From: a virus
DNA length: 23,809 nucleotides
Strand: one strand, 5' to 3'
Virus record (IMG/VR): IMGVR_UViG_3300021963_000650
Coordinates: 1 to 23,809 of that record
In this document: positions 3,286 through 5,978 of the stretch, piece after piece
Numbering within the stretch: the first letter of the stretch is position 1
Layout: the number at the start of each line of letters is the position of its first letter
Position numbers and translations under genes: made by a program
Notes under the pieces: model-generated
What the model was told of the DNA's origin: nothing
The model's database searches: none
The model's input: the letters and a program-made list of their open reading frames with translations, nothing else

Positions 3286-5367
3286 CTACTTTAACCCCTC
3301 TTCCGAGAGCCTGAACCCACCCACCGTGCTGGTCAGGAACGGGCTCATGGCCATCATTTCGACCGCCCTGTGGACAGACTGCTTGCTCTGTCCGCACTCC
3401 TTTCCGACCTGCCGCAGGTCTACCATGGTCCAGATCAGGGTCGTCTCGGACGCCTTCTGGCGCGCCCGGAGCGCGTCCAGGATCATCTTCTGGACCTTGC
3501 CCTGCGGCGTCGCCTTCTTGGTCGCGACCACCGGGTCGGTGGCCCGCATCACGAGCGACTTGACGCCCTCGCCGTACCGATCCACGCGCCCGAGGTCCAC
3601 CTCGACGGCCTCGTATCCGATTGGAGACATGGAGGCCGTGTCCTTGAACCGCTCGCGGGTCACGTTGACCGCCATGCCCTGGGCGTCTGGCCGCTCGACG
3701 ATATACTCGGCGTCTGGGTTAGCCATGAGCGCGCTGGCGCCACGCGGACGCTTCGCGTCACCATGGCCCGAGTGCGCCACCAGCAGCACCGTCGCCGTGT
3801 ACCGCTCGCGCAGCCCGATCGTGAGCTTGGAGAGATACTCGGCGACCTCTTGGTTGCTGTTCTCGTCGAGCCCCGCGCTGAACTTGCTGAACGTGTCCAC
3901 GACCACGAGCGCCGGCCGTATCCCGGCCTCGTCGATCGCGCTCTGGAGCATGGTCATCTCCTCGTCGGCGTTAAGGTTCGCGACCGACTCCAGCGCCATG
4001 AGCCGCAGCTCCTCGAGGTCGCGCCCCTTGCCGTGCTCCTGCATCCATGCCTCGGCGCGACGGCCGAGGCCCGCGCCCTCGCCCGAGAGGATCACCACGG
4101 GATTATCAGCCGCCGCGATACGCATCGCCCAGTCGAGCGCGATGAACGACTTGAAGCTGGCTCGTGGCCCGGCGAGCACCGCGAGCACGTTGGCCTCGAG
4201 CACGTTATGGATCAGCCAGCTCGCCTCGCGCCGCTCGGTGACGATCTCGCCGATGGGCCGAAGGATGAGGCGACGGCTCGCGACTATGCCACCAGGTGTC
4301 ACGGTCCCGGATTGTTGTCCGGACGCTGTGTGTACGATCTGCGGCTCGCGGACGCGCTCCATCCCGAGCGCCTCGGGCAGGTTTTCGTAGCTACGGAAAT
4401 CCTCGGGCTCCTCGCGCTTGGGCGGCCCGAGCCGCACCGCCTCTGGCACGTTGACCCAGCCGCCCGCCTTGGCCGCGTTGAATAGGCTCCCGAGCGTGAC
4501 CCCGCCGCCACGATCAAGGTGGAACGACTGCCACCGATACTCGATGTCGGCGCGGCCCGCGTAGGAGTCTGGCAGTACGCCGGTGACGCACCCGCTTGAC
4601 CAGGCGTCCCAGAGCTCGAGCCCGTCGTCGGCGCCGCCGGAGGCGTGGTGCAGCGCCATCCCTACCATGAGCCACGGGTCGTAGTCAGCCGGGTCGATGA
4701 AGACGAGGGCCTCGGTGATCCGCCGCAGCTCGCGCTGGAAGTCTCCGCTGGTGCCGGGCTTTGGCGGTAACTTGGCCGCGACCTCCGCCGGAAGTTCAAG
4801 GTCCATCCGGCGCTCGTCGATGAGGCCAGCGGGCAGCGGCTGGACCTCCTCGAGCGGACCGCTCTGGCCGAAGTGCAGCGGCCACCAGATGATGTAGCCA
4901 CCCTCGGCGCGGATGTCTAAACCGTCGCGCTTGACCTTCCCGAGGACGACGTTGGCGCCGCCCCTGATCTTGACTCCGGGCGGTAACTTGAAGAGGTAGT
5001 GCCGTCCGCCGCTGCCGCCGCCGGTCTGGTGTACGCGGGTGCTTAGAAGAGCGCCCTGATTTTCAGATAGCCACTCTTGAGCAGCGACCCCAGCCTTGCT
5101 GGTATCGAAGTCAATGACGGCGAGGCCGGTGCGGCTCCCGGTCGGGACGCCGACGAGGGCGTCAGGGTGAGCGGCCCAGAATCGACGTATCTGGGCCTCG
5201 TCTTGGGTGGCGTCCTTGAATCCGTTTTTGGTGAGCGGGCTCTTGGCTTTGAGCGTGCGCCCCTCTTGGTCTGTTTCATCTTTTCTCCTGCATGGAAATA
5301 CGGGGTAACGCCTCGCCAGCTCGAGGACCCTCTCGACTGGCACGATCGCGGTGAGTTCTGGTTTCAT
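3286..5367 (-). CDS. Primase-polymerase / RecA-like helicase fusion
   Basis: 693-residue replication protein. The N-terminal prim-pol domain (about 8-185) has the archaeo-eukaryotic primase motifs: DFD (86-88), the GRHYLF His (H123), and the LDIRAEGGYIIWWP Asp (D151). A PriCT-like segment follows (IDPADYDPWLMVGMALH, about 224-240). The RepA/AAA_25-type ATPase domain has a divergent Walker A, GPRASFKS (400-407, Phe instead of the usual second Gly), Walker B LVVVD (487-491) and the LLVAHSGH segment near 528-535. The C-terminus (about 620-690) looks like a winged helix. It probably primes and unwinds phage DNA. ATG at 5367 overlaps the regulator stop (ATGA); the frame is open further upstream but only through that gene. 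Organisation is certain, enzymatic details inferred. Confidence 0.92.
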   Translation of the reverse strand: MKPELTAIVPVERVLELARRYPVFPCRRKDETDQEGRTLKAKSPLTKNGFKDATQDEAQIRRFWAAHPDALVGVPTGSRTGLAVIDFDTSKAGVAAQEWLSENQGALLSTRVHQTGGGSGGRHYLFKLPPGVKIRGGANVVLGKVKRDGLDIRAEGGYIIWWPLHFGQSGPLEEVQPLPAGLIDERRMDLELPAEVAAKLPPKPGTSGDFQRELRRITEALVFIDPADYDPWLMVGMALHHASGGADDGLELWDAWSSGCVTGVLPDSYAGRADIEYRWQSFHLDRGGGVTLGSLFNAAKAGGWVNVPEAVRLGPPKREEPEDFRSYENLPEALGMERVREPQIVHTASGQQSGTVTPGGIVASRRLILRPIGEIVTERREASWLIHNVLEANVLAVLAGPRASFKSFIALDWAMRIAAADNPVVILSGEGAGLGRRAEAWMQEHGKGRDLEELRLMALESVANLNADEEMTMLQSAIDEAGIRPALVVVDTFSKFSAGLDENSNQEVAEYLSKLTIGLRERYTATVLLVAHSGHGDAKRPRGASALMANPDAEYIVERPDAQGMAVNVTRERFKDTASMSPIGYEAVEVDLGRVDRYGEGVKSLVMRATDPVVATKKATPQGKVQKMILDALRARQKASETTLIWTMVDLRQVGKECGQSKQSVHRAVEMMAMSPFLTSTVGGFRLSEEGLK

Positions 5368-5576
5368 GGATAGATGTCCGGCCTCAGAGCCTTGCGTGAT
5401 ACACCAGTCGCGGCCTCGACGGCAAGGACGCGCAGCGGCGGCAGCCGCCCCGACGCGCACCACTTCTGGACCGCCTGTGGCCTGACCCCCAACTCCCGCG
5501 CCAGGGCGGATTGCCCGCCCGCCTTAGACACGGCGTGAATTATTGCCGCCTGCTGCGGCGTGATCTTTCTGCTCAT
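5364..5576 (-). CDS. Cro/YdaS-type helix-turn-helix regulator
   Basis: 70-residue DNA-binding protein. The HTH is GGQSALARELGVRPQAVQKW (about 20-39), with recognition helix VRPQAVQKWCASG, followed by PPLRVLAVEAATGVSRKALRPDIYP, the typical ending of Cro/YdaS-like phage regulators. It is the first gene of the leftward transcript and is translationally coupled to the primase by ATGA. The divergent region at its 5' side carries an inverted repeat overlapping candidate promoters in both directions, so it probably represses its own transcript and the early operon. The nearest Shine-Dalgarno is not obvious. Confidence 0.85.
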   Translation of the reverse strand: MSRKITPQQAAIIHAVSKAGGQSALARELGVRPQAVQKWCASGRLPPLRVLAVEAATGVSRKALRPDIYP

Positions 5577-5580
5577 GTCG

Positions 5581-5650
5581 CAAGATTACAACCCACGGTG
5601 GAGCCCAGACAAGGGGCCAGGAAAAAGAAATTACACCGGGGGGTTGTAAC
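5581..5650. promoter_or_regulatory. Inverted repeat, candidate operator pair
   Basis: TTACAACCC at 5586-5594 and GGGTTGTAA at 5641-5649 are exact inverted copies. With one single-base indel and one mismatch the match extends to the left arm's complement CACCGTGGGTTGTAA against CACCGGGGGGTTGTAA at 5634-5649. The right arm overlaps the candidate rightward -35 and touches the candidate leftward -10. The likely ligand is the adjacent HTH protein. Confidence 0.55.
5630..5635 (-). promoter_or_regulatory. Candidate leftward promoter -10 (regulator/primase operon)
   Basis: The minus strand reads TGTAAT at 5635-5630, five of six to the sigma70 -10, about 54 bases before the regulator ATG. The -35 at a 17-base spacer (CTTTTC) is poor. 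The position, next to the operator right arm, makes regulation by repression plausible. Confidence 0.3.
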
Positions 5651-5672
5651 TCGAAAAGCGCTTTGCTACATT
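5644..5672 (+). promoter_or_regulatory. Candidate rightward early promoter
   Basis: TTGTAA (5644-5649) and TACATT (5667-5672) are separated by exactly 17 bases, each four of six to the sigma70 consensus. They lie about 50 bases before the first gene of the plus-strand operon. The -35 lies inside the right arm of the inverted repeat, so a bound regulator would block it. Confidence 0.45.
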
Positions 5673-5720
5673 CTGATCTCCCCGGCAAGGTGCCGGACGA
5701 AGCGATAGAAGGAGACAAAC

Positions 5721-5978
5721 ATGAGCAAAGTAAACATGAACATCGTCATTTATCCCGCCCGAGGTTTTCTCGGCGCGACGAACGTCGTTGCAGTTCGCGG
5801 CAATCTTCAGGCAATTCGCTCTGCGGGCGCAACGGACGCTGCTCGATTTGATCTCGCGATTCAAGTTCCGGCTCGTAAATTTCGCGGGGTTGCCGCTCCT
5901 CAATTTTTATCTAACGACGTTCCTGCGGCTTTTCGCGCTTCGTGGGCGGTTGTTTCGGCTACAGAGGCGGCGGCGTAA
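5721..5978 (+). CDS. Hypothetical early protein
   Basis: 85 residues, not recognised. It reads as a small alpha/beta protein rich in Ala, Val and Arg (for example GATNVVAVRGNLQAIRS and DLAIQVPARKFRGVAAPQF) with no membrane segment. The start at 5721 is well supported by AGGAG seven bases upstream. It is the first gene of the rightward operon behind the candidate early promoter, a place where phages often carry host-takeover genes; that role is only inferred from position. Confidence 0.65.
   Translation: MSKVNMNIVIYPARGFLGATNVVAVRGNLQAIRSAGATDAARFDLAIQVPARKFRGVAAPQFLSNDVPAAFRASWAVVSATEAAA

Follow-up and report, generated by a model that had tools for sequence, protein, structure and literature searches.

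A candidate Cro gene with operator-like sites over two divergent phage promoters and no recognisable CI

Among the closest described systems, the cryptic prophage CP-933P carries YdaS, a Cro equivalent whose role was established by EMSA, footprinting and reporter assays, and the report on it argues that YdaS and YdaT are Cro and CII and do not form a toxin-antitoxin pair (PMC8630535). The same report describes two divergent promoters with overlapping palindromes, as in the locus analysed here, whose regulator belongs to the same Pfam family; unlike the present locus, CP-933P has a CI equivalent, PaaR2, encoded opposite, and it is the PaaR2 gene that is leaderless. In PY54 (PMC4488713) the cro mRNA is leaderless, an UP-element-like tract lies by the cro promoter and the Cro site is palindromic, all of which recall our locus. 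This Cro comes from a telomere phage and is akin to the solved Cro of N15; however, PY54 has cI, and its Cro is described as binding OR3 only and not its own promoter.

The cI/cro regions of PS-1, Tr60_Ab31 and HB2107-3I are similar in their recognition helices, of the type [ST]PQAVQ[KR], and in their TACAACC/GGTTGTA-type sites, but they have an annotated repressor or HTH regulator gene divergent to cro and an SD-like stretch upstream of cro. The Cro homologues of PS-1 and Tr60_Ab31, each beside an annotated repressor gene, show 66 % (over 63 % of the query) and 63 % identity to the protein studied here. Upstream of its Cro homologue PS-1 carries a perfect 17-bp palindrome, TACAACCGCTGGTTGTA, and Tr60_Ab31 the site TGCAACCAGCGGTTGTA. 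By eye, three spaced TTGTAA/TACAAC-type sites can also be seen between the repressor gene and cro of PS-1 (around 3840-3940 of locus L091). Caulobacter phage Jess A (Rauchvirus) likewise has a YdaS-like gene and, facing it, a divergent arm, without an annotated repressor in the interval, and its gene order is YdaS-like gene, one gene, primase and terminase small subunit; its HTH protein, however, is 41.8 % identical, and the comparison is one of gene order, not of operators.

That the helix of Cro and its half-site change in a correlated way is already established as an idea (Hall et al. 2005, as cited in PMC4488713). Similarly, in Cluster A mycobacteriophages the repressor and its binding motif diverge together, as they do in the group described below, and there set the superinfection type, but those phages are temperate and carry a true immunity repressor (PMC6550527).

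The present locus lies in a 23.8-kb virus record, a fragment; this whole stretch of DNA is called the window in what follows. In contrast to CP-933P, its opposing promoter would drive an arm with an exonuclease gene, and the search for CI found none. We consider it likely, with a probability of about 0.8, that the region is a lambda-type operator with Cro and without a recognisable CI, in which Cro would repress both divergent promoters through two sites, here named A and B. The region looks like an immunity region minus the immunity repressor. Its parts, Cro and operators, are ordinary; what is unusual is that no CI was found and that they appear to be swapped as a cassette.

The 70-residue protein and the two gene arms

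The HTH gene (5364-5576, minus strand) encodes 70 residues with the recognition helix RPQAVQKW at residues 32-39. An earlier note on this DNA had assigned it to Cro/YdaS, and the profile searches bear this out: Pfam YdaS_toxin (PF15943) matches at 2.6e-18, with 66 bits against a curated cut-off of 30, and P22_Cro (PF14549) at 5.7e-8, with 32.9 bits against 30.2, while the PHROGs match is phrog_35, transcriptional repressor. Solved relatives include the Cro of Xfaso 1 (1.1e-8) and that of N15 (0.0017). The AlphaFold model comprises five helices (pLDDT 88.6) in the all-helical Cro fold, and the best fold match is Xfaso 1 Cro at TM 0.80-0.82, with a Foldseek E-value of 1.6e-3 at best, none of the matches reaching 0.001. 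Judged from its sequence, the protein is most likely a Cro that would repress the opposing early promoter as well as its own, a probably leaderless one.

The ATG of a primase-polymerase/helicase gene (3286-5367, minus strand; Prim-Pol 1.2e-27 and AAA_25 1.8e-26, in a profile search that began at 5376, three codons upstream of this ATG) overlaps the HTH stop codon as ATGA, and the HTH gene heads the primase operon. On its other side, 144 bases separate the leftward HTH gene from the rightward arm, which starts at 5721 with an ORF of 85 aa without a family match (5721-5978, plus strand) and encodes a phrog_862 protein of unknown function, an exonuclease and a DUF3310 protein. With this content the opposing arm looks early, and a rightward exonuclease arm is reminiscent of the PL recombination arm of lambda. 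The suggestion of a simple early/late switch finds no evidence of late-gene control to sustain it; given that the opposing arm looks early and that the HTH gene heads the primase operon, the better fit is a protein that acts as a brake on two early promoters.

Operator-like sites, promoters and the rightward leader

Within the 144-bp intergenic region, TTACAACCC (5586-5594) and GGGTTGTAA (5641-5649) form an exact 9-base inverted repeat with 46 bases between the arms, which lengthen with one indel to about 15 bases (CAAGATTACAACCC against CGAG-TTACAACCC), just as had been claimed. The repeat alone is only mildly unusual, an exact inverted repeat of at least 9 bases being found in 1.85 % of 2000 dinucleotide shuffles of the region, and taken by itself it could be due to chance. 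With at most one mismatch, TTACAACCC occurs three times in the window against 1.9 expected; it is therefore the pair and its placing that count, and not the 9-mer alone.

The earlier note had envisaged one bound dimer touching both arms, which would make them a single site with a spacing of 55 bp. This is too distant, and each arm is instead part of its own 17-bp operator-like site. Arm 2 is the strong half of site A (5632-5648, no strand), which lies over the rightward -35 and ranks first in the window with 12 of 14 consensus positions; arm 1 is the strong half of site B (5587-5603, no strand), which lies over the leftward spacer and -10 and ranks second with 11 of 14, the third-best place in the consensus scan reaching 10 of 14. 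The claim that the arms overlap the divergent promoters thus stands in that operator-like sites cover the rightward -35 and the leftward -10, but they do so as two sites and not as one.

The palindromic scan consensus, TACAACC-N3-GGTTGTA, was read from the immunity regions of temperate Pseudomonas phages (PS-1 and Tr60_Ab31) and was picked for its likeness to the arms, so that these ranks are supporting and no independent proof. When the raw PS-1 string was scanned on the window, A came first and B was tied with two other places; with the raw Tr60_Ab31 string A was tied for first and B fell outside the top six. A blind 17-bp dyad search per locus rose barely above shuffles, with 4.83 versus 4.32 of 7 for site A and 4.72 versus 4.14 of 7 for site B. 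This weak blind test, and the 1.85 % of shuffles with an equal repeat, are what could be expected if the repeat were due to chance or non-regulatory, for instance a transcription or recombination structure; such a reading is nevertheless very improbable in view of the class-matched motifs at both same places in 66 of 70 relatives.

A consensus promoter scanner with a threshold of 9 of 12 found no promoters, so both promoters described here rest on position and conservation. The inferred rightward promoter, TTGTAA-17-TACATT (5644-5672, plus strand; -35 at 5644-5649, -10 at 5667-5672), has its -35 inside site A, and the best promoter fit places the -35 within site A in all 29 representatives of the relatives, in a test that took in TTG-beginning hexamers only. 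The inferred leftward promoter, TTGTCT-16-TGTAAT (5585-5612, minus strand; -35 at 5612-5607, -10 at 5590-5585, with the ATG 8 nt further), is a best-of-many fit, as are the leftward promoters of the 29 representatives, in which the best-fitting -10 lies 6 to 10 nt before the ATG. With this spacing, and with an SD-like match of at least 4 upstream of the HTH gene absent in 24 of the 29, the HTH mRNA is probably leaderless or nearly so. An A/T-rich, UP-element-like tract is seen by composition at 5622-5633 (minus strand). At -59 to -42 the A+T fraction averages 0.70 in the representatives, with 0.72 in the window, and exceeds both flanks in 21 of the 29.

A dimer of the 70-residue protein would bind a 17-bp site near TACAACC-N3-GGTTGTA. 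At site B it would sit on the -10 and the spacer of the HTH gene's promoter, blocking it, and at site A it would cover the -35 of the opposing promoter, from which the phrog_862 protein, the exonuclease and the DUF3310 protein would be expressed, and block that promoter as well. The protein would in this way turn down its own transcript, which would run on into the primase gene, together with the opposing early transcript. Binding, repression and the order of filling are what we infer.

Alternatively, the protein at site A could activate the rightward promoter from a class II position instead of repressing it, and it would suit such a role that the centre of site A in the window falls near -39 relative to the inferred rightward start and that -35 hexamers are often weak. 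We regard activation as improbable, however, since the operator encloses the -35 in all 29 representatives, the -35 of one helix class (H) reads TTGACA or TTGACG and would need no activator, and a family member, YdaS of CP-933P, represses both promoters that it overlaps (PMC8630535). As for how sites A and B would act in repression, cooperative looping at a fixed helical phase is disfavoured by the varying A-B span in the representatives (58 in 11, 54-57 in 8 and 47 in 3, with outliers of 25 and 75; spans of class A excluded), and this variation also weighs against the two-site reading as a whole.

The leader of the rightward mRNA contains a hairpin, CCGGC-AAGGT-GCCGG (5682-5696, plus strand; window fold z -1.77), and a conserved GAAGCGATAGAAGGAG with the ribosome-binding site (5699-5714, plus strand). 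Counterparts of the two (5676-5714 in the window) are found in 56 distinct leaders, across helix classes and before different first genes. In 25 of the 56, which were chosen by hand, pairing holds in 91.4 % of cells, and both sides have changed in 15 cells, against a shuffled mean of 4.3 (0 of 500 shuffles); two other covariation measures lie within shuffles (95 and 141 of 500). RNAalifold predicted three pairs on the leader, and no Rfam family matched it up to E 1. In some relatives ATGGACGGC... can be read as a short ORF, which was considered as a conserved leader peptide and set aside, the start or frame being missing, by eye, in the window and in others.

Search for lysogeny genes

The window had been described as having a single HTH gene and no integrase, which holds in the records tested: HTH_3 matches exactly once in each of 30 records and tyrosine integrase (PF00589) in none of the 30. 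YdaS matches once in each of 16 records, while resolvase (PF00239), S24-type repressor (PF00717) and ParA (PF13614) match in none of the 16. Most records are fragments, as is the window. Two look complete because their ends repeat exactly, over 127 bp in a record of 36,242 bp and over 81 bp in one of 36,394 bp; the only regulator seen in either is the HTH protein of the 36,242-bp record, the PHROGs scan having covered 20 of 50 and 10 of 45 ORFs of the two.

A lambda-type lysogeny switch has operators common to two divergent promoters, three operators per region, a CI-type repressor opposite cro, and an integrase or other prophage maintenance gene. Operators common to two divergent promoters appear to be present here, and two sites, not three, stand out in the window; the profile counts given above yielded neither a CI-type repressor nor an integrase, resolvase or ParA. 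Speaking against a lack of lysogeny genes, the nearest TerL relatives carry annotated recombinases, a resolvase in MW202879.1 (locus L276, at 65 %) and an integrase in MF074189.1 (locus L277, at 57 %); among such relatives ctjtQ328 has an annotated gamma-delta resolvase, and phiM5 has both an annotated integrase and a protein like P22 c2. Bacterial genomes yielded no prophage form of this clade, the genome collection giving 6 distant matches at 42-53 %, and the plasmid collection gave 21 records with distant matches only, all under 60 % identity. Going by these absences, the phage group of the window is probably not lysogenic via any standard integration route.

It could also be that the protein is the maintenance repressor of a non-integrating prophage, such as a phage-plasmid or pseudolysogen, in which case the phage would be temperate in an unusual way. 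To lack a leader is CI-like for a repressor gene, as with lambda cI and PaaR2 (PMC8630535), and the diversity of cassettes recalls superinfection immunity types. However, PY54 Cro is leaderless too (PMC4488713), the head of the primase operon is Cro's place, ParA is absent from the 16 records, and the genome matches, none of them of this clade, and the plasmid matches are all distant, which together make a maintenance repressor unlikely. With regard to the reading as a Cro without CI, a literature search for a virulent phage with cro and operators and without a repressor returned no fitting paper; such papers may exist.

Helix classes, matched sites and cassette exchange

Relatives were taken from four scans of viral contigs, as the best 80 loci of 113, 138, 119 and 118, leaving out loci with less than 100 nt upstream. 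At least 100 distinct contigs gave 70 distinct protein-plus-upstream sequences and 29 representatives; L082-L089 (contigs repeated), L090-L095 (other phages) and L239 (a distant relative) were excluded from the 70. By recognition helix they fall into the classes R (RPQAVQKW, as in the window), H (KPQAVHQW, KPQAIHQW), Q ([TS]QQAVQ[YF]W), Q2 (KPQAVQQW) and A (APAA[IV]SRW), L081 being missed by the helix pattern and put in class A on reading its sequence.

Comparison of these relatives shows that the operator-like sites and the recognition helix change together. With motif classes defined after the sequences were seen, site A has the motif of its own helix class in 70 of 70 distinct relatives, the A motif being common to H and Q2 and one class A member also having an R-type motif; site B, near the start codon, has the own-class motif in 66 of 70 and an other-class motif in none. 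In class R, L227, L232, L233 and L275 (4 of 27 distinct) are without the start-proximal site B and have two tandem sites further upstream. In a 4x4 test on 28 of the 29 representatives, which left out class Q2 with its one representative, sites A and B of the four classes resembled each other most when paired within their own class (rank 1 of 24 permutations). The earlier note had held that loss of the arms where the protein is kept would speak against its reading; apart from these four R-class relatives at the start-proximal site, the arms are kept with the same helix and differ with a different helix. Unlike the established helix/half-site rules for Cro, this change is found among very close phages and together with whole-cassette exchange.

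On a tree built from 64 primase N-termini, helix class has to change 26 times (minimum 4, shuffled mean 31.5), and different helix classes are found within each of three sets of primase N-termini that are identical over 260 residues. Near-identical primase DNA is shared by 32 locus pairs. The 23 same-class pairs are 98-100 % identical from -150 to +1199, whereas the 9 different-class pairs, which are drawn from nine loci and hence not independent, are 97-100 % identical at +200 to +1149, 42-66 % at -100 to +149 and 86 % at the leader (-150 to -101). In these 9 pairs the first rightward gene differs as well (32-39 % at -350 to -151, about 5727-5926 of the window), and in some pairs identity drops again within the primase gene; the exchange is therefore, on these identities, part of a broader mosaicism for which the leader is one of the boundaries. 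Operators and the half of the HTH gene that encodes recognition appear to move together, bounded by the conserved leader hairpin on one side and the HTH 3' codons on the other. Subject to assembly error, the cassette appears to move as a unit between phages with nearly identical flanks; mixed cassettes as assembly chimeras are possible, and the nine loci of the different-class pairs come, by contig name, all from different samples. At least two helix classes occur in 11 of the 12 metagenomes that have two or more contigs. With the first rightward gene replaced between otherwise near-identical phages, exchange at the leader extends to this gene as well.

Where related phages carry many repressor/operator types, a situation known as heteroimmunity, the usual explanation is selection from prophages. 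Here a heteroimmunity-like pattern, with matched types that coexist in one sample and are exchanged, is seen in a group without a recognisable CI or integrase, and if the pattern holds, some other force must maintain the diversity; the 70-residue protein with its two sites would offer a small test system. One tentative and rather doubtful explanation is that strictly lytic phages keep and swap mutually blind Cro/operator types, a resident Cro silencing the early promoters of a same-type co-infector. If this were true, immunity-type diversity would arise from competition between phages within an infection, with no lysogen. Additionally, the natural helix/operator pairs may help to derive rules of Cro recognition; among them are helices that differ by one residue, for example KPQAVHQW and KPQAVQQW, whose sequences also have other differences elsewhere.

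In L280, L281, L282 and L283 (Bradyrhizobium and related records) the HTH stretch is the N-terminus of a longer ORF of about 260-310 aa, which stands upstream of an ORF of about 980 aa.
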